From contig NZ_AP018666.1 of assembly GCF_003967075.1 (NCBI RefSeq), forward strand, positions 148,122-212,121: DNA of 64,000 nt, read 5' to 3'. The translations under genes were made by a program, and so were the position numbers. The stretch's first letter is position 1. Each line of letters starts with the position of its first letter. Source of the DNA: Sphingobium amiense (GTDB lineage: Bacteria > Pseudomonadota > Alphaproteobacteria > Sphingomonadales > Sphingomonadaceae). Below are positions 47,742-63,228 of this stretch, in pieces. The notes beneath the pieces are model-generated. The model made no database searches and was not told where the DNA came from. It was given only the letters and a program-made list of their open reading frames with translations.

Positions 47742-48476
47742 TCAATGCCCGTCGATTGCCTGCAGGATTACGGCCGACACCTTGCCGACATCGTCATTCA
47801 GGAAGTGGCCGCCGGGCAGCGCGATCCGTGTCACGTTGCGCGCGCTCGCGCTCCACACGGGGCATAGGCTTTCCGGCTCGCTCTCGCCTTGGATACAGAG
47901 CGCGGGCGCCCAATCGAAGCGCTGGGCGGTGGGGAGAGCCGGGCCATCATTGCCGACGTTGAAGACGCCGCCCGGCGTCGCCCGGAACGACAGCGTGTCC
48001 TGCGGAACGATGAGGGCCGCAAGCACGATCCGCTGTCGATCGGCGGGGGGCAGGTCGGCGAGGCCCGTCAGGAGAACATCGGCGCCGAAGGACTGGCCGA
48101 TCACCACAAGGCGGCGCGCGCCCGGCTCCGCGAGGGCGCGGCCGATCGCCTGGCGCACGAGCGCCCGCGTCTCCTGCGGCGAGCGGCGACGGGCAAAGGC
48201 GCTGAGCGAGTTGACGCCCAGGACCGGGATCCCGACCGCGGCGATGTGCCTCGCGATCCTGGGCCCCATGCCGGTGTTGAACCCCAGGTCACCGGAAAAA
48301 AACAGGGTGACCGTGCCGTCTTGCCTTGCGGACGAGGCGCTCGCCGGCACCCGGCTGTAAATCGGCCCCGCCGGATAGCCCAGAAAATGGCAATATCCCG
48401 CGCCCGCGGCGATGACGAGCAACGCGACCAGCAGCGCGGCGCGGACCCATCGCTGGGCAAGAGACCGGCTGCTCAT
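47742..48476 (-). CDS. acvB: AcvB/VirJ-like lysyl-phosphatidylglycerol hydrolase
   Basis: The 244-residue protein has an N-terminal signal/anchor (RAALLVALLVIAAGAGYCHF) and an alpha/beta hydrolase domain. The nucleophile serine is in VVIGQSFGADVLLTGL, GDLGFNTGMGPRIARHIAAV lies upstream of it, and a late histidine is in LPGGHFLNDDVGK. It corresponds to the VirJ domain of AcvB, known to cleave lysyl-phosphatidylglycerol in the periplasm. Its start overlaps the mprF stop (ATGA), so the LPG-making and LPG-removing genes are coupled, as in Agrobacterium and Rhizobium lpiA-acvB. Confidence 0.85.
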   Translation of the reverse strand: MSSRSLAQRWVRAALLVALLVIAAGAGYCHFLGYPAGPIYSRVPASASSARQDGTVTLFFSGDLGFNTGMGPRIARHIAAVGIPVLGVNSLSAFARRRSPQETRALVRQAIGRALAEPGARRLVVIGQSFGADVLLTGLADLPPADRQRIVLAALIVPQDTLSFRATPGGVFNVGNDGPALPTAQRFDWAPALCIQGESEPESLCPVWSASARNVTRIALPGGHFLNDDVGKVSAVILQAIDGH

Positions 48477-50998
48477 TTGCCGCCGATCAGCGCCTGGAGG
48501 TCGAACAGCGCCCTGGCGAGCGCCGGGCCTTGCGGCCCCGCGATGAAGCGCGGCTCCCAAACCGGCGAGAATTTCTCTTTGTAGCTGCGTAGGCCCTCGA
48601 AGCCGTAGAGCGCCTGGCCGTGATGGTAGAGAAGCGCGCCGAGCCGCGCCCAGAGCGGCGCCAGGCGGCGCGCCTCCAGGCCGGACAAGGGGGCGAGGCC
48701 GAGGGTGAACCAGCGATAGCCCTGCCCATGGCCCCATTGCATCAGCCGCACGAACAGATAGTCCATCGTGCCATAGGGCATGTCGGCATCGTGGCGCATC
48801 AGGTCGATCGACAGCTCGGTGCGATCCTGCGTCGCCCAGACATTGGCGAAGGCGACAATCTTCTCCTCGCGCAGGACGACCGCGCAGTCGAAGCGGGCGA
48901 GATAGGCGGGGTCGAAGCGGCCCACGCTGAAGCCCTTTTCCCGGTGGCCCTTCTCGCGCAGCCAGCTTTCGGAAATCTCCTGCAGCCGGGGCAGATGCGC
49001 GGCAAGCTCGTCTCGCGCGATGATCGCGAAGCGCGCGCCTTCTTCTCCGCGCGGCGCACCGCATAGCGCAGCGGCTTGGCCGCCGGCGTGTCGAGCGTGA
49101 AGGTGGTAAGATCGACCCGCGCTTCTTCGCCATATTTGACGATCTGCAAGCCCAGGTCGATCGCCATGGGCAAGGCCTGCAGGCTGATCTGGTAGAGCAG
49201 CAGCCGGCCCTGCGCGGCGTCCGCCCCTTCGCGCAGCTGCCAGAGGAGTTCGCTCCATTCGGCAGGATCGCCGACCGGATCGCCCATCACGATCCAGCTT
49301 GCCCCGCGCACCTGGTACATGACGAAGGCGCGGCCCGAGGGCGAGCACAGGAAGCGCTTGTCGCCCGTATAGGCGAGATTGGCGTCGGTGCGGTGCGTCA
49401 GCGCCATCGCTTCGCCCTGCGGCGGCTCGAGGCTGGCGAGCCCCGGGCCCGCCACGGGGGCCGGCGCAGCAGCCGCCACACCGCGAGGCGGCCAGCGCGA
49501 GGCCTACGCCGAGGCTGGCGCGCAGGAAGCGCGAGGCGTCGCCATGCTCCGAAAAGCGCCAGAAGAGATCGGTGCTGTAGGGCACGCGCTTATAGGCGAA
49601 GAAGCCGACCCAGATCGGCAGGCCGATCATGAGCGCCACGCTTGCCAGCCAGCTCGGCGTCAGCACTTCCTGCGTCAGCCGTGTCTGGCGGTAGAAGGCG
49701 CCCCGCGTCCAGCGCAGGACGCCCGCGAGCAGCAGCATGAGGATTGCCTCCTCATAGTCTAGGCCCTTAGCGAGCGAGACCAGCGCGCCGATGAGCAGCA
49801 GCAGGCCTGTCAGCCAGGCCGCCCCATCGAGGCGCCTATAGAGGCCCGCCGACACCAGCAGCAGCGCGGCGCCGACTACGCTGCCGGCGAGATGCGATAT
49901 TTCCACCAGCGGCAGGGGCAGGATCGCAGCGAGCGCCGCCATGCGGTCATGCTCGGCGGGCAGCGCGCCCGAGACCAGCAGGACCATGCCGCCCAGGAAC
50001 ACGAGGGCCGCGACCAGCGTCGGCGCTATGCCCGAGGCGATCGTCTGGGCGCCGTGCAACGTCGCGGCCATCGGCCGCCGCCAGCGCGCTCCTTCCTGTA
50101 CTGCGATGATGACGCCTGCGATCAGCAGGGGCAGGATATAGTAGACCAGCCGGTAGCCGAGCAGCGCGGCGACAAGCTCCGGGCGCGGCGTTGCCGGCAG
50201 GGCTGCGACGATGACCGCTTCGAAAACGCCGAGGCCGCCCGGCACATGGGTTACGAGCACCGCGATGATCGCCAATATGTAGCCGATGAAGAAGACCGGC
50301 CAGTCGGCAAGACTGGCGCCCGGGACCAGCACCAGCAGGGCCGCGCTCGCGGCCATGAGATCGACCGTGGCGACGCCAAGCTGGGCGAACGCCGTCCGGT
50401 AGCCCGGGATCCGCAAATCCCATTTCCAGATCCGGACAGTCCGGCCCGCGGGTCCTGACCAGGCAAGCGCACCGATGATGAGGGCAAGGAGCGCGAGGCC
50501 ACTTGCCCGCCAAACCCAGGGCGAGGGCGCGAAGCCGGCAAAGCCGGGCCCGCCGGGAAAGAGCGCCAGCATCGCCCCGGCAAGGGTGAAGACGCCGCCC
50601 CAGAAGGTCAGCCCGGCGATCGCGACCACCCGGCCCACATCGCCCGCGCCCAGGCCGTGCGCGCTGTAGATCCGGTAGCGGGCCGAGCCGCCGGTGAAGA
50701 GCGCGAGGCCCAGATTATGGCTGAGCGTATAGCTTGTGAACGAGGCCAGCGCGGCGACGCGATAGGGCAGGGGACGATCGATCGCGCGCAGCGCCAGCAC
50801 GTCGTAGAGCGTCAACGCCAGATAGCTGATCGCGGTGAGCCCCGCCGCCGCGAGCAGATGAAGGACGCCCACTTGCGCCCAGGCTGCCCGGATGTCGTGC
50901 ATGTGCACTTCGCGCAGGAGGTGCGACAGCGCGAAGAAACCCATCGCGGCAAGCAGGAGAACCACCGCCACCGGGACGATGCTCTTGAGCCGGTCCAT
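48473..50998 (-). pseudogene. mprF: MprF/LpiA lysyl-phosphatidylglycerol synthase with two compensating frameshifts
   Basis: MprF makes and flips LPG, lowering membrane charge. The N-terminal flippase part is intact (LALTLYDVLALRAIDRPLPY, ILAIIAVLVTHVPGGLGVFE; about 14 helices), starting MDRLKSIVPVAVVLLL. At about 49,460-49,500 the frame shifts, and the expected synthase sequence (ALTHRTDANLAYTGDKRFLC) is found in another frame. At about 49,040 it shifts back and continues DELAAHLPRLQEISESWLRE to the end. The total length, 842 codons, is normal because the shifts cancel. About 145 residues would be garbled, including part of the transferase domain. Sequencing error in GC-rich DNA is an alternative. 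Confidence 0.8.
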
Positions 50999-51217
50999 TT
51001 GCGCTTTTCCGATCACCCGCACCCCTCTCGAAGACGGGTCCACCTTATGGAGACGGCGCGGCGCCGAACAGCGAAATAGAAGCGGCGTTTTGGCGGGTCC
51101 CGACACCGGCACCTGGCTGGCACTGAAGACGACCCGGGGAATCCCGGCCCGGAAAAGGGGAGGGGGATCGGAACTGTGATGCTGCCGAAGGGGCAGCTGT
51201 CACAGGAGCATACCCTC

Positions 51218-53356
51218 ATGTCCGATCTCTTCGCCGCCGCCGGCGCATCCGACCGCCTTGCCGCCCAGGCCCTGCTTCCCCTGCTGCGCAGCGGGGCCCC
51301 CATCACCCGCCGCCAGCTTAACGAAGCGATGACGAGCGCCTTTGGCGGCAGCGACGCCGACGGCCACTGGACGCAGCGCGACAGCTTCGAACTCCTGGAG
51401 CACGCGACCGCCCTCTATCTGCGAGAAAAGCCCTATACCCTCGAGAGCTTCGCCGACGTGACGCAGGCCCATGCGCTCGTCCAGCGCCTGCCGACCCAGA
51501 CCGTGCGCAGCGAAGCGCAGATCGCCTGGCAGCAATTCTCGACGCCCGCCGATATCGCGGCGCTTGCGGTGCTGCTCGCCGACGTCGGGCCGCAGGACGT
51601 GGTGCTCGAACCCAGCGCGGGCAATGGCCTTCTCGTCGCACAGCTCGGAGATCATCGGTCGCTACAACTCAACGAACTCGATCCTACGCGGCGTTCGCGC
51701 CTGGCGGCTCTGTTCCCCGAAGCCCTCATCACCGGGCATGACGGCGCCGCGATCGGGTCGCTGATGGCCCGGCAGGAGCGGCCGAGCGTCATCCTGATGA
51801 ACCCGCCCTTCTCGCGCTCGCTCGGCCGCGGCACCGACGACCTGGCCGCTGTGCGGCACCTCCAGGCGGCACTGCGCCACCTCGCACCGGGTGGACGCCT
51901 GGTGGCGATCATGCCCGATTGGTTTGGCCCCAATGCGCGCATGCGCGACCATTTCGAAACCGTGCTGCGCGAGGCGAGCGTACGGACATCGCTGCGGCTC
52001 GAAAAATGCTACACCAAGCATGGCACGAGCATCGCCGTGCGGCTCTTCGTCATCGACAAGGTCGCTGGAAACGCGCCGCCCGCCGTCATCCAGCGCGCAT
52101 CGGTCGAAGAACTGGCCGCGGTCCTCACCGTGCCGCCGCGTACCACGCCGCCCGTCGTGGCAGCGCCCGTCCGCGCGGCACCGGTGTCCGGTAAAGCCAT
52201 CTCGCTCTTCCGCGCGGTCAAGAGCGCGCCCGTCAAGCCGCGCGCCTATTTCGCACCGGCGCGCAACGACGTTCTCCCGGTCGATTATGAACGCCTCGAA
52301 GCCCCGGCACCGCTGCTGGAGCAGACCGGCGTCTATCTGCCTTATCGGCCGAGCCGCATCATATTCGACAAAGCGGGCGAGCACCCGACCGCACTCGTCG
52401 AATCCGTCGCGATGGGATCGATCGCCGCTCCCATCCCGCACTATGTGCCCCGCTTGCCCGAGCGCACCGTGTCGGAACGTCTGCTGTCGGTCTCCCAGCT
52501 CGAGACCGTCGTCTATGCCGGCCATGCCTGGTCGCAGACCCTCCCGGGCCGCTTCAAGCCGGACAAGGAAGGCGTTGGGCTCGTCCTCGCCGAGGATGGG
52601 CGGACCTATCGCAAGGGCTTTTTCCTGGGCGACGGCACCGGGGCCGGCAAGGGCCGACAGGTCGCCGCCTGCATCCTCGACAACTGGCTGCAGGGCCGGC
52701 GGCGCAACATCTGGGTCACCAAGAACGAGCCGCTGCTCGAAGATGCGCGGCGCGACTGGACTGCGCTCGGTGGCGTCTCGGCCGATGTGCAGCCGGTCGG
52801 CAACTGGAAGATCGACGAGCCCATTACCCTCGAGCAGGGCGTCCTGTTCGTCACCTATCCGACCCTGCGCTCAGCGCGCGGCGATCACAGCCGGCTCAAG
52901 CAGATCCTCGACTGGGCGGGCGAGGATTTCGAAGGGGTCATCTTCTTCGACGAAGCGCACGAGATGGGCGGCGTCGCCGGCGGGGAAGGGGCGCTGGGCG
53001 CCAAAGCCGGCTCGCAGCAGGGCATCTGCGGCGTGCTCCTCCAGAACCATCTACCCGGCGCGCGCGTCGGCTACGCTTCGGCCACCGGCGCCTCGGACAT
53101 CAACAATCTCGCCTATGCGGTCCGGCTCGGGCTCTGGGGCCCGGAAACCGCCTTCCCCGATCGCGAGCAGTTCATCTCCTCGATCCGGCAAGGCGGCATC
53201 GCCGCGATGGAACTGGTCGCCCGCGATCTCAAGGCCAGCGGCCTTTATCTCGCCCGCGCCCTGAGCTTTGCCGGAGTCGAATATGACATATTGAAGCACG
53301 AGCTGACCCCGGCGCAGATCGAGATCTACGACATCTATGCCGATGCTTGGGCCGTG
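51218..53356 (+). pseudogene. Strawberry-notch family methylase/helicase, part 1 of 3
   Basis: These 713 codons start MSDLFAAAGASDRLAAQALL, with AGGAG 9 bases upstream. An N6-adenine-methylase-like domain shows VVLEPSAGNGLLVAQL (about residue 128) and ILMNPPFSRS (about 191). A strawberry-notch helicase domain follows, with Walker A GDGTGAGKGRQ (about 471) and IIFFDEAHEMGG (about 576). The gene is cut after the codon GTG in YADAWAV by a recombinase-trio element, and resumes in frame as IHRNMEAALEL on its far side. The local open frame runs 79 codons into the element. Such proteins are frequent on alphaproteobacterial plasmids; their role is not established. Confidence 0.88.
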
Positions 53357-53376
53357 TTATGCGCAGCTGCGCATAA
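53357..53376. repeat. 20-bp palindrome at the left end of RIT element 1
   Basis: TTATGCGCAGCTGCGCATAA is a perfect palindrome between the host gene and the inverted repeat. A second palindrome of the same shape, TTATCGCGA-GG-TCGCGATAA, follows at 53383-53402. Both fit two inverted recombinase-binding arms around a short centre. Confidence 0.75.
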
Positions 53377-53418
53377 GATCGCTTATCGCGAGGTCGCGAT
53401 AATGCGCAGGAGCGCGGC
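53377..53418 (+). repeat. RIT element 1 left inverted repeat
   Basis: 42 bases matching the inverted sequence at 57147-57188 with one mismatch at position 19. Confidence 0.92.
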
Positions 53419-53466
53419 GCGGCCCCGCAAAGCGGCGGCACACTTCGCCACGTCCTTCGCATTATT

Positions 53467-54471
53467 TCACAGGGTGTCGAGCCATTCCATCAGGCTGGCA
53501 TCGCGTTTCCACGATGGTGGGACGTTGCTCGCCGCCGGCGCGCCTACCTGTTCAAGCGCCTTTCGTTTGGTCTCCAGATTGGCCTGTGCGTAGTGGTTGG
53601 TCGTATCGAGGCTGACGTGTCCAAGCCAACTGCGGATGACGGTGATGTCGACCCCGGCAGCGACAAGGTGAACGGCGGTGGCATGCCGGAAGCTGTGCGG
53701 CGTCACATGTTTGGACCGAAGCGTCGGCATGGATTTGGCGGCTTCCTCAACATAGGCGGCCAACTTGAACCGCACCCCGGAGGCGCCCAGGGGCTCACCG
53801 TATCGATTCACGAAGATTCGCTCTTCTGCCCCACGTGGTTGGCGTTCCAACAACTTCCGGAGCAACGTCACTGTTTCTGGCCAGAGCGGACAGATGCGTT
53901 CCTTGCGCCCCTTGCCGTAAAGACGCACGAAGTTCGGTGCGTCGAACCGGATCGCGTCGGTACAGAGGTCGAGAGCTTCCTGGATGCGCGCGCCGCTGTT
54001 GTAGAGGAACGAGAGCAACACATGGTCGCGCATCCCCTCGATTGTCGATCGGTCGGGCTGAGCAAGGATCGCCTCGACCTCCCCCGTCTCGAGATAGCAG
54101 GGTGCAGCGGTGGGCTCCCGCTTCAGCGGGACGGTCAGGACCTCGGCGCATTGCGCAATGTATTCGGGATCCTTGTCCGCCACGTAGCTGAAGAAGCTGC
54201 GGATCGCTGCGAGCCGGCAGTTTCGCGTGCCGATTGTGCTTTTGCGCCCATGCTCGGTATGATGGAGGAACGCGCGCACCTCGCCGGCCGAGACATCGGC
54301 CAGCGTGATCCGCGCAACCCCGCCGCCTTTTCGCTCCGCGATAAACCGAAGCAACAATCGCCAGGTGTCGCGGTAAGACCGGATCGTATGAACCGAAGCA
54401 CTGCGTTGCTCGGCCAACCATTCCTGGAAGAACGCCCGCAACAACGCGGGGAACGGATTGCTCTTCGTCAT
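53467..54471 (-). CDS. RIT element 1 tyrosine recombinase C
   Basis: The 334-residue protein is a XerC/D-like integrase and the third gene of the trio. An N-terminal core-binding domain (EQRSASVHTIRSYRDTWRLL) precedes the catalytic domain. Catalytic residues are seen in FLYNSGARIQEALDL (R), YGKGRKERICPLW (K), VTPHSFRHATAVHL (HxxR), SWLGHVSLDTTNHYAQ (H and Y). The ATG overlaps the previous stop as ATGA. All active-site residues are present, so it should be able to act. Confidence 0.92.
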   Translation of the reverse strand: MTKSNPFPALLRAFFQEWLAEQRSASVHTIRSYRDTWRLLLRFIAERKGGGVARITLADVSAGEVRAFLHHTEHGRKSTIGTRNCRLAAIRSFFSYVADKDPEYIAQCAEVLTVPLKREPTAAPCYLETGEVEAILAQPDRSTIEGMRDHVLLSFLYNSGARIQEALDLCTDAIRFDAPNFVRLYGKGRKERICPLWPETVTLLRKLLERQPRGAEERIFVNRYGEPLGASGVRFKLAAYVEEAAKSMPTLRSKHVTPHSFRHATAVHLVAAGVDITVIRSWLGHVSLDTTNHYAQANLETKRKALEQVGAPAASNVPPSWKRDASLMEWLDTL

Positions 54472-55823
54472 GGCCGCGCCTCCATTGTGAGGCATCGGAC
54501 GCCAACGGTACGGAACCGCTCGCTTGCCTCATGCAGCAGGTCCTGCGTGACAGTGATGTAGACCAGCGTGGAGTTGATGTCCCGGTGCCCCATATAGGTG
54601 GAGAGAAAGCGCAGTTTGTCCTGCGGATTGACGCCGGATCGATACCATTGAAGGATTCGGTTCACGACCATCGAGTGGCGCAGGTCATGAACGCGTGGTC
54701 CCGCCCGCCCCGTCGGGGGCTTGAACCCGGCGCGGCGCATGACGTTGGTAATCATCGTTGAGACCGTCACGGGGGTATAGCGATCATTGAAGTGCTCGTG
54801 CCAGAAGAGCCCGGACCGCGGATCCTGCGGGGCGCCGGCGCGCCGCCTTGCATCGATATAGGCCCGTAATTCGGCCATGACGCTGCCGGTTAGCGGCAAG
54901 ATCCTGGTCTTGTAGAACTTCGTTTCCCGGATCGTGATCGTGTCCGATTGAAGGTCCACGTCACCCAGATCAAGCCCGGCGAGTTCACTACGGCGCAGTC
55001 CGGCACAATAGGCCAGAACCACCATCGTGTAGAGGACCATAGGCCGCAGCGGAGCATCCGGCGACGGATACGAGCGGGCAACATCGAGCAACCGCCGGAC
55101 GTCGGCCGGACTGAAGATATGCGGCCGTCGATGCTCGCGCGCCACTTCCCGCTCTGGCCGGGCGTTGAAGCGTTTTGGCGGGATTCTGGGATCAAGGCGA
55201 TACCGCGCCTTGGTCAGGATGCGCCCCAGCTTCTGACATTCAGCCGCGTGATTGCGGGTCGGCTTGGCAGTTGCCCAGCGCGCCAGCATTGTCTCAAGCG
55301 ATGCCCCGGCAAGTTCGGGGTTCGCCTGGAGGAACCGATCGAACCGCAATAGCCAGTGAGCCTGGGTCTCATACTGATAGCCCCGGCTGCGCATCAACGC
55401 GACATGCTCGCGCATGAAGTCCCCCAGCACGCTGCCGTAGGGCGCGGGCCGTCGCAATGCGGCCAGGGCTTCGTCGGGATTGGGGGAAGCGAGAGCCCGC
55501 CAGATCGGCTTGTTTTGTTTGGCGTTGTACTGACGACGAAGCACAGCAACGGGATTCTCGGCGATCAGCCCGATTTCGACGAGGTGTTCGAGGAAGCGAT
55601 CGACAATGCAGACCTGGTTGAGCAGCGTCGGCATTCGCCAACGTTTTTCCATTTCCTTCAGCCAGACGTCGAGCATCTGCCGGTCAACCGCGGGATGACG
55701 TCGGGCTACATCCTCGAAGCTGCGAAGGAACCAGCGATAAGTCGGTCTGCTTCCCGGCCGGAACTGCGATTTTTCCAGGAAGGCGTCAACAACGGTGCAA
55801 TCGGGATCGTGCCAGGCGCTCAT
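54468..55823 (-). CDS. RIT element 1 tyrosine recombinase B
   Basis: The 451-residue second member of the trio has a longer N-terminal region (DPDCTVVDAFLEKSQFRPGS) and a catalytic domain with LAYCAGLRRSELAGLDLGDV (R), RETKFYKTRILPL (K), RVHDLRHSMVVNRI (HxxR) and YMGHRDINSTLVYI (H and Y). It overlaps both neighbours by 4 bases (ATGA), which implies fixed stoichiometry. RIT recombinases are thought to work together on the element ends. Confidence 0.92.
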   Translation of the reverse strand: MSAWHDPDCTVVDAFLEKSQFRPGSRPTYRWFLRSFEDVARRHPAVDRQMLDVWLKEMEKRWRMPTLLNQVCIVDRFLEHLVEIGLIAENPVAVLRRQYNAKQNKPIWRALASPNPDEALAALRRPAPYGSVLGDFMREHVALMRSRGYQYETQAHWLLRFDRFLQANPELAGASLETMLARWATAKPTRNHAAECQKLGRILTKARYRLDPRIPPKRFNARPEREVAREHRRPHIFSPADVRRLLDVARSYPSPDAPLRPMVLYTMVVLAYCAGLRRSELAGLDLGDVDLQSDTITIRETKFYKTRILPLTGSVMAELRAYIDARRRAGAPQDPRSGLFWHEHFNDRYTPVTVSTMITNVMRRAGFKPPTGRAGPRVHDLRHSMVVNRILQWYRSGVNPQDKLRFLSTYMGHRDINSTLVYITVTQDLLHEASERFRTVGVRCLTMEARP

Positions 55824-57052
55824 GACAGCATCTCCGAGCCGGGTACCTCGAGCGCCACGGCTCGGAGATCATCTGTCGCCAGCTTGAGATAGGCATTGGT
55901 GGATTCGATTGATCGATGCCCGAGCACGTCGCCGATGATCTTTTGCGGGACCGACGCCCGCAGTAGTTCGACCGCTCGCGCGTGGCGGAAGACATGCGCT
56001 CCTCGCTTTCCCGGCGGCTCGACGCCTGCGGCTGCTAACCGCCCGCGGATCATGCCGTACAGGTTTGTCATTGCGATGTAGGGCGCGCAGGATCGGATGA
56101 AGATTTCCCGCCCCTCGACCTGGGGGCGCCCATGACGCAGATAGTCGAGCAGCGCCTCACCAACCGGCGCCAATAGCGGCATGTAGGAGTACGCATTGGT
56201 CTTGGTGTGACGGATACGCAGGGATTCTCCGCGCCAGTTCACGTCTTCAAGCCGAAGGCGGCATATCTCACCTTCGCGCAACCCATATGTGGCAAGCAGT
56301 TGAAGTACCGCAAAATCGCGCATTCCTCGCGGCGATCCGTCCTTCTTCGTCGTCGCCAACACCGCGGCGATTTGGCTCTTGTCCAACGTCGAGGGCACAT
56401 CTTCATAGGCGTAAAGCATGGGGCCGATGATGTGCGGCGTGAGATCAGTCGGGATGCGTCCCGTCCGATGCAGATAGCGCACCACCGACCGGAGCCGCTC
56501 AGCGACATCGGCCAATGATTTGCGCCTTAATCCAGGCGCGCGCATGTCCATGTAGAGATCGACTTCCACGATGCTCAACGTGTCGAGGCTGGCAGCACCG
56601 CTCCGTTCGAACTGCCATCGCAGGAAGTTCCGTGCCTCCCACATAAGCGCCGCGATGGTAGCGCTTGCCAGACCGCGCTCGTCGCGCAGCCATGCCTCGT
56701 ATTCGCAGCAGATCGCCTGCCGGTACACAGTTTCCGGTTCGATTATCTCCGGCTCGGGCGGCCATTTGCCTTGAGCAAGCCGGAGGAGCTTGTTGATTGA
56801 CGTGCGGGGCAACATGTGCCACCGCGGACAGGGAACTCGGCCATACTGGGCCTGAAAATCCTGGATTGCATAGCAAAAATACTGGTCGACCTGCTGAGGC
56901 GTCACAGTCTCGACCTGCATGTCGCACTCGGCCAGATAATCGAGAAATGCGCGCGCGTAGAGTCGATGGTTCGCCACAACCACCGGGTTATAATTCTGCG
57001 CCGTGAGCAAATTCGAGAGTTCGGCGATCAATTCGTCGTGCGTCTGCAACAT
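55820..57052 (-). CDS. RIT element 1 tyrosine recombinase A
   Basis: The 410-residue first gene of the trio starts MLQTHDELIAELSNLLTAQN with GAGGAAAC upstream. Active-site motifs are LLATYGLREGEICRLRLEDV (R), IRHTKTNAYSYMPLL (K), AHVFRHARAVELL (HxxR) and VLGHRSIESTNAYLK (H and Y). The promoter must lie in the approximately 95 bases between the start and the right inverted repeat. The open frame reaches 14 codons further upstream without a better start. Confidence 0.92.
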   Translation of the reverse strand: MLQTHDELIAELSNLLTAQNYNPVVVANHRLYARAFLDYLAECDMQVETVTPQQVDQYFCYAIQDFQAQYGRVPCPRWHMLPRTSINKLLRLAQGKWPPEPEIIEPETVYRQAICCEYEAWLRDERGLASATIAALMWEARNFLRWQFERSGAASLDTLSIVEVDLYMDMRAPGLRRKSLADVAERLRSVVRYLHRTGRIPTDLTPHIIGPMLYAYEDVPSTLDKSQIAAVLATTKKDGSPRGMRDFAVLQLLATYGLREGEICRLRLEDVNWRGESLRIRHTKTNAYSYMPLLAPVGEALLDYLRHGRPQVEGREIFIRSCAPYIAMTNLYGMIRGRLAAAGVEPPGKRGAHVFRHARAVELLRASVPQKIIGDVLGHRSIESTNAYLKLATDDLRAVALEVPGSEMLS

Positions 57053-57146
57053 GATTGTTTCCTCAGCTGGTCCAGAGACCACCGAGGTTCGCAATCAAAA
57101 TAATGTGCAGCAAGATCGCACGACAGTGCAGGAATTCAGCGACTAT

Positions 57147-57188
57147 GCCGCGCTCCTGCGCATTATCGCTACCTCGCGATAAGCGATC
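57147..57188 (-). repeat. RIT element 1 right inverted repeat
   Basis: Inverted partner of 53377-53418; the host gene resumes at the next base with ATCCATCGC. Confidence 0.92.
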
Positions 57189-57506
57189 ATCCATCGCAAC
57201 ATGGAGGCCGCCCTCGAGCTGACCGGCGTCGTCGACGGCCTCGAAGGCAATACGCTCAACAGCGGCGCCAAGGCCTCGGCGCGCTCGCGCTTCGAGTCGA
57301 CCAAGCAGCGCTTCTTCGGACAGGTGCTCCTGTCGATGAAATTGCCGACCGTGATCGCGGCGGCCGAGCAGCATCTCGCCGAGGGCAAATCGGTGGTCAT
57401 GCAGCTTGTCACCACGGCCGAGTCCATCCTCGACCGCCGCCTGGGCCAGCTCGCCCCGGATGAGCGCGCCGAACTCGATATCGACCTGAGCCCGCGCGAA
57501 TTCCTG
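57189..57506 (+). pseudogene. Strawberry-notch family gene, part 2 of 3
   Basis: These 106 codons lie between the two RIT elements. They read IHRNMEAALELTGVVDGLEG, RFFGQVLLSMKLPTVIAAAE, GKSVVMQLVTTAESILDRRL and end DLSPREFL. They belong to the region between the helicase core halves of strawberry-notch proteins. The piece is in frame with part 1 and part 3 once both elements are removed. No start of its own is expected. Its survival without stops suggests the insertions are not old. Confidence 0.88.
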
Positions 57507-57526
57507 TTATCTGGAGATCCAGATAA
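57507..57526. repeat. 20-bp near-palindrome at the left end of RIT element 2
   Basis: TTATCTGGA and TCCAGATAA around GA. The same arm recurs as TCCAGATAA at 57608-57616 and as TTATCTGGA at 61149-61157, near the inner edge of each inverted repeat, so it is probably a recombinase-binding arm. Confidence 0.75.
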
Positions 57527-57527
57527 A

Positions 57528-57624
57528 ACATATTCTTTGCAGTCGAGATTTATGTCGAGCGGTTCGCACGCAGGCGCGGATTTACGGGATGAAGACATCG
57601 ATTTTACTCCAGATAATTAAGGTG
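57528..57624 (+). repeat. RIT element 2 left inverted repeat
   Basis: 97 bases matching the inverted sequence at 61141-61237 with two mismatches. On the minus strand it contains an outward-facing start codon with GGAG upstream. Confidence 0.92.
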
Positions 57625-57652
57625 CCCCCAGCCCCAACAAGCTGGAGGATCT

Positions 57653-59197
57653 ATGACGTCGCCAAAAACGGTCGTTTCATACGGACGGCCCAAGCCCTGG
57701 ACGGGAGACACTCCCACCCCAGATACTCTATCCACCGCCTTCCACTCTTCTCTTCTGGGGACTGCGGCAGTTGCAGCGGGGCTTTACAAAACGGCCGCTC
57801 GCCATTTCCTGTACTGGATCGATCAGCAGGGCATCGCGGTCTCGATTGTTGATGACGCTGTCGTCCGCCGCTTCGAGAAGCATCGGTGTCGCTGTCGGGG
57901 TTTTTCCCGCCATGAGCCCAACCGTCCGAAGTTCACCAGCAAGGTTCGGCGGTTTGTTCGCTTCCTGGAGGACCGGGGTATGGTCGCCGTGCCCGATGAT
58001 ATCGATCATCTGGACACGGCGTTGGCGGATTACGCGACATTCCTCGTGCAGGAGCATTACAGCGCGGCGAGCATCAAGAGCTACCGTTCGGAGGCAGCGC
58101 ACTTTGCCGCGTGGATGCGCGTTTCTCGCCTGCGCTGGCAGGATGTCACTGATAAGCATGTTGCCTTGTATGCTGGCCACAGCTGTCGTTGCCCGGTTTA
58201 CCGCAAGCGCGGAACGCTGATCGGCCATCACGGTCCGTTACGCCGCAGTAAGGGCGCGCGGCGCTTCCTTGGATTTTTGCGCGACCGGCAGATACTTCCG
58301 CAGGCAGAGAGCCAACCGTATGAAGACGAGGATCTGACAGCCTATAAGGCTTGGCTGAAGGCCCATTGCGGCAGTTCGGCTGCGACGATCCGTCGTTACA
58401 GCGACGAAGTGAAGCGCTGGTATTTGTTGCTCGGTCCGCCATCGGATCTGGACGCGGCTACCATCAGAAGAATCGTTAGCCACCGCATCACCGAGGTGCC
58501 CGGTTCTGCACCGACCGTCGCCGGCATCATACGGAGCTATGTGCGCTTTCTTGTCTCACGCGGGGAGTGTGACGCGGCGTTGCAACATGCCTTTCCGCCC
58601 ATCAGGCGCTATCGGCTCGGCACCCTGCCACGCTATATGGACGAGGCGACGGTCGAGGGGATCATTGCGTCCTGCAAAACCGATACTGCGGTCGAGATTC
58701 GTGACAAGGCCATCATCCTTCTACTTGCCAGGCTCGGCCTGCGAGCCGGTGACATTTGGCAGCTCCGTCTAGCGGATATCGACTGGAACGAAGGATGTCT
58801 GAGGGTATGCGGCAAGAGCAGGCGGCCCGATCGCCTGCCGCTGCCCCAGGATGTAGGGGATGCGATCCTCGACTATATCGAGCGGGCCCGCCCACCGATA
58901 GACGAGGAGCGGTTGTTCGTTCGGGTGCAACCTCCATTCCGGCCGTTCAACTCGTCGGCCGAGATCGCAGGCATCGTAGCGCGTGTATTCCATCGGGGCG
59001 CCATCGAGGGCGTGCCGACGGGTGCCCATGCCTTCCGGCATTCTCTGGCAACACGGATGCTGCGCGCCGGCGCCGGCCTTGAATCGGTCGGCACGATCCT
59101 GCGCCACCGTTCCCCGGCGACCACCGCCATCTACGCCAAGGTCGACGTCCCGATGCTGCTCAAGGTCGCTCAGGATTGGCCGGGAGACGCGGCATGA
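57653..59197 (+). CDS. RIT element 2 tyrosine recombinase A
   Basis: The 514-residue first gene of the trio has an unusually long N-terminal region, with two short cysteine motifs (EKHRCRCRGFSRHEP and GHSCRCPVYRKRG) that could bind a metal. The catalytic domain has LLARLGLRAGDIWQLRLADI (R), VCGKSRRPDRLPLP (K), GAHAFRHSLATRML (HxxR) and ILRHRSPATTAIYAK (H and Y). GGAGG lies just upstream of the ATG. Complete active site. Confidence 0.92.
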   Translation: MTSPKTVVSYGRPKPWTGDTPTPDTLSTAFHSSLLGTAAVAAGLYKTAARHFLYWIDQQGIAVSIVDDAVVRRFEKHRCRCRGFSRHEPNRPKFTSKVRRFVRFLEDRGMVAVPDDIDHLDTALADYATFLVQEHYSAASIKSYRSEAAHFAAWMRVSRLRWQDVTDKHVALYAGHSCRCPVYRKRGTLIGHHGPLRRSKGARRFLGFLRDRQILPQAESQPYEDEDLTAYKAWLKAHCGSSAATIRRYSDEVKRWYLLLGPPSDLDAATIRRIVSHRITEVPGSAPTVAGIIRSYVRFLVSRGECDAALQHAFPPIRRYRLGTLPRYMDEATVEGIIASCKTDTAVEIRDKAIILLLARLGLRAGDIWQLRLADIDWNEGCLRVCGKSRRPDRLPLPQDVGDAILDYIERARPPIDEERLFVRVQPPFRPFNSSAEIAGIVARVFHRGAIEGVPTGAHAFRHSLATRMLRAGAGLESVGTILRHRSPATTAIYAKVDVPMLLKVAQDWPGDAA

Positions 59198-60108
59198 TGA
59201 ACGCTCAGATCGAACGCTATGTCGCGTTACATCGCAGTTTCGGCCGCAAGTTTGACGCGCAGGAACGGTGGCTCCGTCTCTTTGCCAGCTATGCCAACGA
59301 CCTCGGCGATCGGCACATCAAAGTCGAGCGGATCTACGATTGGTGCCGATCGGCCAGTTCCCAGAACGTGGCCCGGGACAGGTTCGACCACCTCCGCCGC
59401 TTCTGCCTCTATGCCCATGCCGAGGATCAGCAGCATCAGGTGCCGCCAGCAGGCGTCTTCGGAAGAGGGAAGCGACGCCGCCCGACACCACATATCATCG
59501 AGCCCGAACAACTCAGAGCGATCATGCAGGCCGCCCTTGATCTTCCGCCCAAAGGCAAGATCAGCCCGCATACTTACCACTACCTGTTCGGCCTGCTGGC
59601 GACGACCGGCCTGCGGATATCCGAGGCGCTCGCACTCCAGTGTAATGATGTGGTCGACGACGGCCTCGTTATCCGGAACGGCAAATTCGGCAAGCAACGC
59701 CTCCTGCCGATCCAGCCATCAACGCGAGAGGCGCTCGATACGTATCTCAGCATTCGCAGAAGGCTGAACGCCCGCGGCGATGATCTGTTCGTCACCACGA
59801 GAGGCCGGGCGCCACACCAGACGGTCGTTCACATCGTCTTCGTCAGATTGGCTCGTAAGCTGGGTTTCCGCGGTCCGACCGGAACCAAGGGCATTCGCGT
59901 CCACGACCTGAGGCACACCTTCGCCGTTCGGTCGCTGGAGTCCTGCCAGCACGATCGGGAGGCGATCCGGCATCACTTAGCAGCGCTCAGCACCTATCTT
60001 GGCCATACGGATGTAGCCAACACATACTGGTATCTCGAAGCAACACCGGTCCTCCTTCGTGACATCGCCGCAGCAGGTGAGCAGCTTTTCCGAGGAGACG
60101 CAGCATGA
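59194..60108 (+). CDS. RIT element 2 tyrosine recombinase B
   Basis: The 304-residue second member starts at an ATG overlapping the previous stop (ATGATG; either ATG may be used). Catalytic motifs are LLATTGLRISEALALQCNDV (R), IRNGKFGKQRLLPI (K), RVHDLRHTFAVRSL (HxxR) and YLGHTDVANTYWYLE (H and Y). The next gene overlaps its stop by 4 bases. Confidence 0.92.
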   Translation: MMNAQIERYVALHRSFGRKFDAQERWLRLFASYANDLGDRHIKVERIYDWCRSASSQNVARDRFDHLRRFCLYAHAEDQQHQVPPAGVFGRGKRRRPTPHIIEPEQLRAIMQAALDLPPKGKISPHTYHYLFGLLATTGLRISEALALQCNDVVDDGLVIRNGKFGKQRLLPIQPSTREALDTYLSIRRRLNARGDDLFVTTRGRAPHQTVVHIVFVRLARKLGFRGPTGTKGIRVHDLRHTFAVRSLESCQHDREAIRHHLAALSTYLGHTDVANTYWYLEATPVLLRDIAAAGEQLFRGDAA

Positions 60109-61148
60109 CCGCGCTCGCCACCCATCTCGCTGCGTTCCTGCGCGAACATCTGCCTCGCGAACGCAACGTCAGCCCACATACGGTGACGACCTACGCGAAC
60201 TGCTTCGCGCTTCTGGTCCGGTTCGCAGCCAACCACCTGAAGCGGCGCCCCACCGACTTGACGATTGAGGATTTCGATCCCGCGCTGATCATGGCGTTTC
60301 TCGACCATTCGGAGGAGGCAAGGAAGAACAGTCCCAGAACCCGCAATGCCAGGCTTGCGGCGATCCGGGCGTTCTTCCGTTACGTCGAGTATCGCGTCCC
60401 AGCCTGCCTCGATCTCGCGCTGCGTGTACGTGCCGTGCCGACAAAGCGGACCGACACGACCCTGATCGACTATCTGACGCGGGACGAGATCACCGCGCTG
60501 CTCGATGCACCCGATCCTCAGTCTCGCCTGGGCACCCGGGATCGCGCCATGTTGCACCTCGCCTACGCTGGCGGTCTGCGGGTCGCCGAGTTGTTGTCGC
60601 TACAGATGCAGGACTTTCCGGAACGCTCGCTCGCAACGGTCCACATCATTGGCAAGGGGCGGCGCGAACGCATCCTCCCTCTCTGGCGCGAGACACAGGC
60701 AAGTCTTCGGGCCTGGCTTGCTGTTCGCCCGCAATGTCAGGCGATGGAGATATTTCTGAACGCTCATGGCGAGCCGATGACGCGCGACGGATTTGCGTTC
60801 AGGCTCGCCAAGCATGTAGCCACGGCGGCGAAGAAGCAGCCGTCGCTGCTGCGCAAGCGGGTCACGCCCCACGTGCTCCGGCATTCCTGCGCGATGCACA
60901 CGCTCGCTGCGACCGGCGACATCCGCAAAGTGGCGCTCTGGCTTGGGCATGCCAGTATCCAGAGCACGGAAGCCTATCTGCGGGCCGACCCCGAGGAAAA
61001 GCTGCAAATCCTCGCTGCGCATGGGTCGCCATTGGTCAAGCCAGGCCGCTTCAGGCCGCCAGCGGATCCGCTGATCATGATGCTCAACGACGTTCGAAAA
61101 CGAGCATCGCCCCGGGGCCGTAGCGCGCCTGGCATCCAGTCACCTTAA
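60105..61148 (+). CDS. RIT element 2 tyrosine recombinase C
   Basis: The 347-residue third member shows LAYAGGLRVAELLSLQMQDF (R), IIGKGRRERILPLW (K), VTPHVLRHSCAMHT (HxxR) and WLGHASIQSTEAYLR (H and Y). It resembles recombinase C of element 1 in size and motifs more than the other members do. The stop codon lies inside the right inverted repeat, so the coding region and the element end overlap by 8 bases. Confidence 0.92.
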   Translation: MTALATHLAAFLREHLPRERNVSPHTVTTYANCFALLVRFAANHLKRRPTDLTIEDFDPALIMAFLDHSEEARKNSPRTRNARLAAIRAFFRYVEYRVPACLDLALRVRAVPTKRTDTTLIDYLTRDEITALLDAPDPQSRLGTRDRAMLHLAYAGGLRVAELLSLQMQDFPERSLATVHIIGKGRRERILPLWRETQASLRAWLAVRPQCQAMEIFLNAHGEPMTRDGFAFRLAKHVATAAKKQPSLLRKRVTPHVLRHSCAMHTLAATGDIRKVALWLGHASIQSTEAYLRADPEEKLQILAAHGSPLVKPGRFRPPADPLIMMLNDVRKRASPRGRSAPGIQSP

Positions 61149-61237
61149 TTATCTGGAGTAAAACCGATGTCTTCATCCCGTAAATCCGCGCCTGCGCGCG
61201 AACCGCTCGACATAAATCTCGACTGCAAAGAATATGT
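61141..61237 (-). repeat. RIT element 2 right inverted repeat with outward start codon
   Basis: Inverted partner of 57528-57624. Reading outward it carries CTGGAG, an 8-base gap, and an ATG at 61167 that opens a leader MSSSRKSAPAREPLDINLDC continuing in frame into the host gene. Confidence 0.9.
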
Positions 61238-61238
61238 C

Positions 61239-63020
61239 ATCGACTATCTCGAACGCGCCTTTCCGACCCGGCAAATGCGCGTCTTCACCGACGACACCGG
61301 CGCCGAGCGCTCGGTGCCGATGGACGACGAGAACGGCAATCCGGTCTATAATCCGCAGGCGCTCGCGGCGCGCGCCAATCTCATCGAGCAGCTTTGCGCG
61401 CTGCCGCCGATCACCTCCGCGCTCGACGGGCTGCTCAATCATTTCGGCCATGACAATGTCGCCGAGATCACGGGACGCACCAAGCGGCTGATCCAGGCGA
61501 GCGACGGGCGCCAGAAGCTCGAGACCCGCTCAACCCGAACCAGCCAGGCCGAGGCCGCCGCCTTCATGGGCGGCCTCAAGCGCATCCTCATCTTCAGCGA
61601 CGCGGGCGGGACTGGCCGCTCCTATCATGCGAGCCTCGATGCGGTGAACCAGGAGCAGCGGGCCCATCTCCTGCTCGAACCCGGCTGGCGGGCCGACCGG
61701 GCGATCCAGGGTCTGGGGCGCACCCATCGCACGCATCAGGCCTGCACGCCCCTGTTCCGGCCGGTAACCACCGACTGCAAGGGCGAGCTGCGCTTCACCA
61801 GCACCATCGCCCGGCGCCTGGACACGTTGGGTGCGCTGACCCGGGGGCAACGCCAGACCGGAGGACAGAATCTCTTCGACCCCGCCGACAATCTGGAAAG
61901 CAGCTATGCCTGCGCGGCGCTGACGAGCTGGTTCCACCTCCTGCACCTGGGCAAGCTCAAGAGTACCACGCTCGCCGAGTTCGAGGAGCGCACCGGCCTC
62001 GAACTCACCGACAAGGACGGCGTGCTGAGGGGCGAGCTGCCGCCGATCCAGCGCTGGCTCAACCGGTTGCTTGCGCTCCCGATCGGGCTGCAGAACCGGA
62101 TCTTCGAGGAGTTTCTCGCCCTCGTCGAAACCCGGGTACAGGCCGCACGCGAAGCGGGGCGGCTCGACGTCGGCGTGGAGACCATGCTCGTCGATACCGC
62201 GACGATCATCGACGACACGATCCTGCGCACCGATCCGGTCAGCGGCGCGACCTCCCACCTCCTCACCATCGAGGTGGCGCGCCGCAAGACGCCTGTCTCG
62301 CTTGAGCGCATCCTGCGCATCGCCGAAAGTCATCCCCGCCACGCCTTCCTGCGCAATGCCAAGTCCGGCCTGGTCGCACTGCAGGTGAAGGCCCGCGCCC
62401 ATATGGAAGAGAAGGACGGCACACCCATCCCTCGCATCGAACTCATGCGCCTGACCCGCAACGACTATATGCGCCTTGCCGATCTCGCCGAAACCGCCTG
62501 GTCACCGATCGACGAGGAGGCTTTCCGCGCACTCTGGGCCGCCGAGGCCGAAGCGGCGGCGGCGCAGGTCGATACCGAGACGATCCGGCTCGCTACCGGG
62601 CTCCTGCTGCCGATCTGGTCAGCGCTGCCGAGCGATCATCTCGTCGTCAACCGCATCGCCGACCAGAGCGGCCAGTCCTGGCTCGGCCGCATCGTCTTCG
62701 ACGATCATGTCGTGCAGCTCTACACCAAACTCGGCCTCGATCGTGCCGAGAACCTGCCGCCCGGCGATATCGTCAAGTCCGCGCTCGGCGGCCGCAGCGT
62801 CGAACTGACGCAGCCGTTCCCGATGGCGATCAAGCGCGCCGTGGTGAACGGTCTGCCCCGCATTGAACTCGTGGGCGCGCCGCCCGCGCAGCTTGCCTAT
62901 CTCAAATCGCTTGGCTGCTTCACCGAGATCATCAGCTACCGCACGCGCGTGTTCGTGCCGGTGGAGGGCGCTGCCGATATCCTCGGCCGGCTGCTCAGGC
63001 CAGAGGCCCAAGCGGCATAG
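61239..63020 (+). pseudogene. Strawberry-notch family gene, part 3 of 3
   Basis: These 593 codons plus stop encode the C-terminal helicase half (GGLKRILIFSDAGGTGRSYH, then the arginine-finger-like DRAIQGLGRTHRTHQACTPL) and a long C-terminal domain. In its current state it can be translated as a 617-residue protein starting at the ATG at 61167 inside the RIT repeat, 24 codons before the host sequence. The joined gene would make about 1,412 residues. No other lesion is seen, so excision of both elements could restore function. Confidence 0.88.
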
Positions 63021-63228
63021 CCACGATCAGGCTCGCGGCATCCGGCTCGATTTCCAATCCCGCCAGGGGCTGGGTCAGCAGCATGGCCGCGAGCGCCGCC
63101 TGGGTCGTCGCCGCGCCAGCCTTGTCGCCCGCCTGTTCGAGCAATTGAACTGCCTTGCGGATCAGGCCGACTGCAAGCGCCCTCTTGTCATGTATTGCGT
63201 CCATCGCATCCACTCGTGCTGGTGCCAT
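62995..63228 (-). CDS. Small hypothetical protein, paralogue 1
   Basis: The 77-residue protein contains DKRALAVGLIRKAVQLLEQA and ends IEPDAASLIVAMPLGPLA. It is helical and acidic-to-neutral. It is related to the next gene (shared RxxAIGLxRxAxxxL start and LDPxSAxLIxxxPL end), so the two come from duplication. Its 3' end overlaps the strawberry-notch stop on the other strand. The start is uncertain; an internal Met eight codons later is possible. Function unknown. Confidence 0.5.
   Translation of the reverse strand: MAPARVDAMDAIHDKRALAVGLIRKAVQLLEQAGDKAGAATTQAALAAMLLTQPLAGLEIEPDAASLIVAMPLGPLA

Follow-up and report, generated by a model that had tools for sequence, protein, structure and literature searches.

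Two RIT elements at fixed codon positions of a plasmid strawberry-notch gene in Sphingobium amiense, with flanking hexamers that probably record their earlier targets

Two RIT elements interrupt a strawberry-notch gene

The window studied here, a 64,000-nucleotide stretch of the Sphingobium amiense genome (assembly GCF_003967075.1, contig NZ_AP018666.1, positions 148,122 to 212,121 of the forward strand), contains a strawberry-notch (Sbno) helicase gene that is interrupted by two RIT elements, which we call E1 and E2. The gene lies on the plus strand of the window as three open pieces in register, at 51218-53356 (713 codons), 57189-57506 (106 codons), and 61239-63017 (593 codons, the feature itself running to 63020), and the two elements are separated by 318 bp inside it. 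Pfam matches placed an AAA_34 lobe in piece 1, which also has a methyltransferase-like part, and Helicase_C_4 (the Strawberry notch C-terminal domain) in piece 3, so both domains of a strawberry-notch-like protein are present. The gene lies on a sphingomonad plasmid backbone. Over 2,135 bp, piece 1 shows 100% identity to plasmids pSES220 and p-B-Sy of Sphingobium yanoikuyae, and pBAR3 and pSWIT01 hold uninterrupted Sbno genes that are 96% identical to piece 1.

An earlier reading of this DNA (the original prediction) had held that the three pieces form one gene and that deletion of both elements restores a perfect frame. We found that the pieces are indeed open and in register and that homologues are contiguous over both joints, with a gap of 0 codons in every homologue joint that could be measured and 63 empty sites with a gap of 0 in DNA, some of them duplicate records. 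The restored frame is open, as claimed; because the native hexamer is the one downstream of each element (see below), the proposed cuts retain hexamers carried in by the elements, which encode A-V and F-L instead of A-I and Y-V. Between window pieces 1 and 2 and the closest database protein (P0001), only three residues change (V to I, F to Y, and L to V), all at carried-hexamer codons, and empty, nearly identical plasmid copies have GCGATC at the first insertion site (site 1) and TATGTC or TACGTC at the second (site 2). RNA splicing or a self-splicing intron was also considered as the cause of the restored frame and was rejected, as there was no Rfam match up to an E value of 0.5 in 51000-63200.

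Reading along the gene, the final two codons of piece 1 are a carried hexamer, GCCGTG (53351-53356, plus strand), which corresponds to GCGATC in empty relatives and which we term the "up" register. Comparison of the ends placed behind it a 20-bp palindrome, U (53357-53376), and a second hexamer, c1, with the sequence GATCGC (53377-53382; reverse complement, GCGATC). These are followed by the 3,800-bp body of E1 (53383-57182, minus strand), which has inverted-repeat ends and 0 mismatches over five genome copies, and by the native hexamer of site 1, GCGATC (57183-57188, plus strand), identified from empty relatives. The body encodes, on the minus strand, RitC (53467-54495, 342 amino acids), RitB (54468-55823, 451 amino acids), and RitA (55820-57094, up to 424 amino acids, with an uncertain start codon), as read from open reading frames and Pfam. 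The final two codons of piece 2 are likewise carried in (TTCCTG at 57501-57506, plus strand, TATGTC or TACGTC in empty relatives) and are followed by the U of E2 (57507-57526), its c1 hexamer AACATA (57527-57532; reverse complement, TATGTT), a 3,700-bp body (57533-61232, plus strand) with 0 mismatches over three genome copies, and the native hexamer of site 2, TATGTC (61233-61238, plus strand). Its genes, all on the plus strand, are ritA (57653-59197, 514 amino acids), ritB (59176-60108, 310 amino acids), and ritC (60105-61148, 347 amino acids). The inverted repeat is 42 nt long in E1 and 97 nt long in E2, where comparison of the repeats placed the left arm at 57528-57624 and the right arm at 61141-61237.

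RIT elements have been described as three overlapping tyrosine recombinase genes, ritA, ritB, and ritC, of about 3.5 kb in all, with an inverted repeat, an overlapping palindrome, and identical copies within a genome (PMC3414803), and E1 and E2 share each of these traits. All six proteins matched Phage_integrase over nearly the complete domain, with the catalytic arginine, histidine, and tyrosine residues viewed by eye only. The three genes of each element are adjacent with short overlaps, and the inverted terminal repeat and palindrome flank ritA and ritC.

RIT elements of two lineages are found at two codon positions of Sbno

Five Sbno genes were found in the S. amiense genome, all with E1 at the same codon and four with a second RIT. 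E2 is identical over 3,700 bp in three places, two at site 2 and one outside Sbno (locus L009). Site 2 of two further Sbno genes holds a third RIT, whose DNA is about 72% like that of E2. The frames of the five matches were 145, 145, 108, and 108 codons where both sites are occupied and 701 codons where only site 1 is. The body of E1 is identical over 3,800 bp in the five genes, and the 100-bp flanks of the other four copies are 61 to 81% (left) and 44 to 76% (right) identical to those in the window.

The same positions are occupied in other genomes. A search of genome_contigs with E1 RitC gave 79 loci, 34 of them listed at an identity of at least 83%. Sbno adjoins the element in 24 of these 34 and is absent beside one (L025), nine being on contigs without a flank; no Sbno match was found at any of the remaining 45 of the 79 loci. 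In a scan of the genus (94 genomes, 75 with piece 2), 100 of the 150 matches listed were intact, 11 were seemingly split at site 1, 16 at site 2, and 9 at both, and 14 were unclear. In held-out genera, E1-like elements were at site 1 in 4/4 loci with readable flanks (L177 being a repeat of a known locus and L179 having no flank) and E2-like elements of at least 76% identity were at site 2 in 6/6; no Sbno was found at held-out relatives with 60 to 65% (L175 and L176) or 74% (L180) identity. In the counts of individual insertions, rows with identical flanks and hexamers were removed as duplicates (80 to 78 rows), an uninterrupted gene entered as a site-2 row (L036) was excluded, two-ended counts omit insertions with one end unread, and four pairs of loci are double records of one plasmid or contig (L177/L020, L124/L164, L123/L165, and L016/L134).

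A 58-row tree of RitC places the site-2 rows on one side of a branch (support, 100/100), far from the site-1 rows. Six target labels require 8 changes on this tree, compared to 30.8 when shuffled; the site-1 label requires 2, which does not establish a single clade, and the labels for ArdC and IS110, targets of other RITs, require 5 and 4, respectively. We conclude from these sequence comparisons, with confidence, that E1 and E2 belong to two distant RIT lineages, each of which homes to one Sbno codon position. The insertions look recent. The suggestion that this gene is a preferred target is thus strongly supported and extends beyond what had been claimed, to two lineages, two fixed codon positions, and many genomes. 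The companion suggestion of a TGATC-type target fails, as only 2/39 site-1 and 5/21 site-2 insertions have a native hexamer with a terminal TG in front of ATC; the two sites differ, the TG belongs to the carried hexamer, and the shared TG^ATC is a coincidence. In a predicted fold of a homologue (P0058; mean pLDDT, 72.5; pTM, 0.42), both sites fall within predicted helices rather than loops, in a model too weak to build on. A scan of viral_contigs with piece 2 gave 10 pattern stretches and no relative among them.

The palindrome and the hexamers follow the polarity of the target gene

From gene upstream to gene downstream, the insertions have the order 6-bp "up" hexamer, U (roughly a 7-6-7 palindrome), 6-bp c1, body, and 6-bp native hexamer. 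U is upstream at 40/40 upstream junctions read at site 1 (one with a 2-bp shift), at 31/31 read at site 2 (L164 being the same plasmid as L124), in 4/4 and 6/6 held-out insertions at sites 1 and 2 (L177 duplicating L020), and in 20/20 plasmid loci fetched later. The ratio of sense to antisense bodies is 23:21 at site 1, 10:11 at site 2, and 10:10 in the later plasmids. U therefore follows the polarity of the target and not that of the body. As had been noted, E1 and E2 in the window read in opposite directions (minus and plus, respectively), which means little when bodies point either way about equally. Where U is asymmetric, its phase agrees with body orientation in 14 of 16 cases.

Our initial reading took the upstream hexamer for the native one and was overturned by empty relatives. 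When insertions having unequal hexamers were compared with an empty relative whose flanks are at least 98% identical, the native hexamer proved to be the downstream one in 9/9 cases at site 1 and 7/7 at site 2, which amounts to a 6-bp footprint with fixed sides in all 16; some of these comparisons share a common plasmid backbone and have different hexamers. The upstream and downstream hexamers are unequal in 30/33 site-1 and 19/21 site-2 insertions, so there is no target duplication. As to the earlier suggestion that insertion may be reversible, the native hexamer is retained downstream, so exact excision is conceivable in principle, and some empty sites have flanks that are 100% identical, but such sites may simply predate insertion.

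The carried hexamers encode dipeptides native to their own site in 69/80 cases at site 1 and 57/62 at site 2, compared to 1.9% and 2.4% of random hexamers, and fall in the dipeptide set of the other site in 0/80 and 4/62 cases, respectively. Among 28 site-1 rows from multicopy genomes, carried hexamers gave 15 matches to the native hexamer of a different Sbno gene in the genome concerned, with 5.8 expected (0/5,000). We read the carried hexamers as probable footprints of earlier Sbno targets. Four site-2 insertions (L011, L012, L145, and L167) carry hexamers coding for A-I, where Y-V is usual; GCGATC lies downstream at site 2 in L152 and L169, and these may be the source of the A-I hexamers.

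Donor-copy pairs fit a two-register rule

We compared two rules for pairs of insertions within one genome. In the register rule, the upstream hexamer of the copy is the c1 of the donor, the c1 of the copy is the native hexamer of the donor, and the body is flipped; in the alternative, the upstream hexamer of the copy is the native hexamer of the donor and c1 is kept. In a first set, 10 exact pairs fit the register rule only (permutation mean, 0.39; reached in 0/2,000), none fit the alternative only, and 12 fit both and are uninformative between the rules. Nine of the 10 have opposite body orientations and one is of unknown orientation. A prediction was then written before a second set was fetched, consisting of 20 E1-type loci from nine multiplasmid strains (20 of 56 plasmid records) chosen for a query cover of at least 93% and for being new to the set, one partner (L167) having been read earlier; Salipiger profundus, Sphingomonas MEA3-1, and Paracoccus liaowanqingii, with about 41 to 44% cover for the copies concerned, fell outside it. 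The second set gave six register pairs (permutation mean, 0.68; 0/5,000) in five strains, DSM 107133, MA-2 (two pairs), P11, SCSIO 75233, and C1, all of them flipped. Body orientation is thus opposite in 15/15 register pairs of known orientation in the two sets.

Chains of jumps are visible in which L127 leads to L138 and then L140, and L127 also leads to L132. E2 in the window (TTCCTG, TATGTT, and native TATGTC) fits exactly as the source of the E2 copy at L010 (TATGTT and TATGTC). At the off-target locus L009 (C1:27000-36000 of the same genome), where an identical E2 lies outside Sbno, the hand-read upstream and c1 hexamers match what a jump out of the window copy would be predicted to leave. 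The sequence past the native hexamer of L009, also read by hand, starts with TTATCC and resembles a U half-site.

We propose that both elements are active RIT transposons homing to fixed Sbno codons, that their two registers hold the last two targets, and that the body is inverted with each jump; we put the probability of this proposal, which is drawn from sequence, at roughly 0.8. Several observations weigh against it. L025, an E1-like copy (91% in RitC), lies outside Sbno and lacks one end. At 90 to 98% flank identity, the native hexamer is downstream in 4 comparisons, upstream in 2, and neither in 2, a range in which the hexamer itself may vary. Three strains of the second set (SJTF8, US6-1, and YBL2) yielded no register pair, and the predicted absence of alternative pairs was not borne out to the letter, as L181 and L182 (CFD-1) fit the alternative both ways; because all three of their hexamers and the printed flanks are alike, we take this pair for a probable duplication of one region. 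Most copies have no found donor, with 10 recipients among the 53 rows of both sites whose genome label recurs; the permutations take no account of how copies within a genome are related; and at L133 and L137 the phase of an asymmetric U disagrees with body orientation.

It could be argued that homologous recombination, gene conversion, or plasmid duplication, and not transposition, spread the copies together with the gene that contains them. Recipients are often plasmids with related Sbno genes, and the CFD-1 plasmids look like such a duplicate, but the bodies are identical while the flanks diverge right up to the hexamers, the carried hexamers are foreign to the gene, and the bodies flip; this explanation is the least probable of those we weighed. 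Hardly more credible is ordinary two-strand tyrosine recombination through a circle, as in Tn916, in which target and element hexamers would end up at either junction at random. The 6-bp nonidentical spacers beside inverted-repeat cores do resemble coupling sequences, but the native hexamer is downstream in 16/16 close comparisons (4 to 2 in the 90 to 98% range), and the exact pairs favor the register rule by 16 to 2, or by 16 to 0 without the identical CFD-1 pair.

In the mechanism that we propose for homing with two registers, the recombinases would act at cores in which a free 6-bp spacer lies between two half-sites. On excision, the outer end of the body would be joined to U, taking along the native hexamer (n) of the donor (body-n-U), and the resulting circle, body-n-U-c1, would have two joints. 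Integration would open the older joint (U-c1-body) and not the one just closed. The expected product has the c1 of the donor upstream, the native hexamer of the donor as c1, an inverted body, and the own hexamer of the new target downstream, so that the two registers would form a record of the last two targets. Entry of n into the circle and opening of the c1 joint would together account for the position of U beside the upstream half, the flip, and the hexamer shift. A separate inversion of the body in place was rejected as not needed, and such an inversion should also displace the native hexamer. The opening of a joint other than the one just closed suggests exchange of only one strand per step, as proposed for SE elements in the part of PMC10214605 that treats them. 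Target specificity, insertion anatomy, the downstream native hexamer, the register rule, and the flip are borne out by the comparisons above; we infer a circular intermediate and a strand-selective exchange that would be completed by replication, with the donor staying in place, and a leader (see below) that would restart translation of the severed C-terminal half.

The register rule could also hold for a cut-and-paste element whose donor persists through a sister replicon copy that kept the element. The retained native hexamer would allow an exact empty site, and empty sites are frequent, with 63 read when duplicates are counted. In 16/16 pairs the donor has kept its element, though pairs can be found only that way, and SE elements, which are strand-biased relatives, leave no empty sites according to the relevant part of PMC10214605; we regard cut-and-paste as possible but doubtful.

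Site-2 elements bring a probable start codon to the gene they split

At the downstream end of E2 is a leader, an ATG preceded by GGAG, with 22 codons (MSSSRKSAPAREPLDINLDCKE) plus the native Y-V, in frame with piece 3 (61167-61238, plus strand). All 21 site-2 insertions for which both ends were read have GGAG, ATG, and 22 in-frame codons in the arm next to the C-terminal piece, in either body orientation, and ATG plus 22 codons was found in 6/6 held-out site-2 insertions, for which the bases before the ATG were not printed. In 16 of the 21, the upstream piece gains no residues before a stop codon that begins U, and five E2-type insertions add 37 residues. The leader tail of E2, LDINLDCKE, matches native 9-mers in register (5/20,000 shuffles; 17, 29, and 264 for three other versions). 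Site-1 RITs have a stop directly before the native hexamer in 34/35 rows printed (two being repeat records), and in other RIT families 17/17 loci lack an ATG with a close GGAG, one of them (L052) having an in-frame ATG. It is likely, from this sequence pattern, that the ends of the site-2 lineage carry a translation restart for the gene it splits.

An unlikely but serious alternative is that the leader is a relic of DNA recognition of the target and not a translated start. The inner part would have to be bound by the recombinases that bind the left half of the target, and the match is short, at 9 codons. Against it stand the GGAG, ATG, and 22 in-frame codons that are present whichever way the body points and, from the ATG onward, in the six held-out insertions, the in-register match of the tail, the stop in the site-1 family, and the lack of an ATG with a close GGAG in 17/17 other-family loci. 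A corresponding Sbno mimic in the arm of E1 was sought and rejected, as shuffles score as well (2,954 and 4,647 of 5,000) and the ArdC family has arm words like these.

Together, these data lead us to favor, with less assurance than the homing and registers themselves, a view of RITs as shift-register transposons, in which one joint would be closed, the opposite one opened, and the body inverted, leaving a two-slot record into which the two codons of the last target would be entered and from which jump order can be read, and of one lineage as a gene splitter that would supply a stop and a start and so still permit production of both helicase halves.

Relation to known elements

E1 and E2 are a known kind of element, the RIT, with new behavior. 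Elements of the Tn916 type have a coupling sequence at either junction, a pattern not seen in E1- and E2-type insertions. Some integrative elements restore the end of the gene they enter, for example, SXT in prfC, and site-2 RITs are like SXT in that part of the coding sequence of the target gene comes from an end of the element. They differ in that a site-2 RIT inserts inside the gene and makes two pieces, with the leader present whichever way the body points.

SE elements share with the RITs analyzed here a 6-bp footprint, with the target hexamer at one junction and that of the donor, carried from the previous site, at the other; they have the genes intA, tfp, intB, and srap and one register, whereas the RITs have three recombinases, the mobile palindrome U, two registers, and inversion (SE sections of PMC10214605). 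The fixed-side footprint is found in E1 and E2 and the SE gene set is not, only three integrase-domain proteins being present; E1 and E2 thus work like an SE element and are not one. GInts also have several tyrosine recombinases and insert repeatedly into one type of gene (ssb in the case of some GInts), and they and Tn554 have other gene sets, with no palindrome register reported in the portion of PMC5385486 that concerns them. A 6-bp transfer is described for Tn554-related elements (PMC10214605).

Citations of RITs go back to 2009, and as late as 2023 the passages of PMC10214605 on RITs gave target specificity, empty sites, and movement as not tested. The RIT section of PMC3414803 gives no convincing binding sites beyond the 28- to 29-bp inverted repeat and the palindrome, and it does not mention the target rule, the hexamer registers, the flip at each jump, or the translation leader. 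Searches of open-licence papers, which did not include Ricker 2013, turned up nothing on RIT targets or on Sbno with recombinases beyond the papers cited here. A single plasmid helicase gene has been settled by two distant lineages, each at its own codon, and the hexamer record makes public genomes into many finished transposition experiments that name donors, recipients, and direction and gives a precise, falsifiable prediction of the product. If the shift-register reading is true, jump order within and between genomes can be read from sequence, and the register would follow from exchange of one defined strand, with separate jobs for the three recombinases.

Other RIT lineages, possible cargo, and neighboring genes

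Among loci whose ends matched the end pattern, other RIT lineages with the same U-and-hexamer ends were found (L074, L091, L064, L086, L060, L048, and L049). Such lineages target ArdC (ArdcN and MPTase-PolyVal domains), the IS110 transposase, probably the IS66 transposase, and an unnamed gene with the motif ANGW-YA-AxAGW. Their carried hexamers mostly code for L-x (ArdC), V-K (IS110), x-G (IS66-like), and Y-A (unnamed gene). L175 and L176, distant relatives of E2, also have repeat-and-palindrome ends and lie apparently within other coding genes.

Some site-2 RITs are 5,142 bp long instead of about 3,725 bp (L012, L124, L130, L131, and L151), and annotated plasmids with these long forms have a 434-amino-acid gene after ritC on the other strand. 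One copy of this gene (L163:13567-14868) had no Pfam or PADLOC match; the gene is possibly cargo. Adjoining Sbno in the window, an mprF-like gene (48473-51112, minus strand) seems, from a glance at the list of open reading frames, to be partly in another frame.

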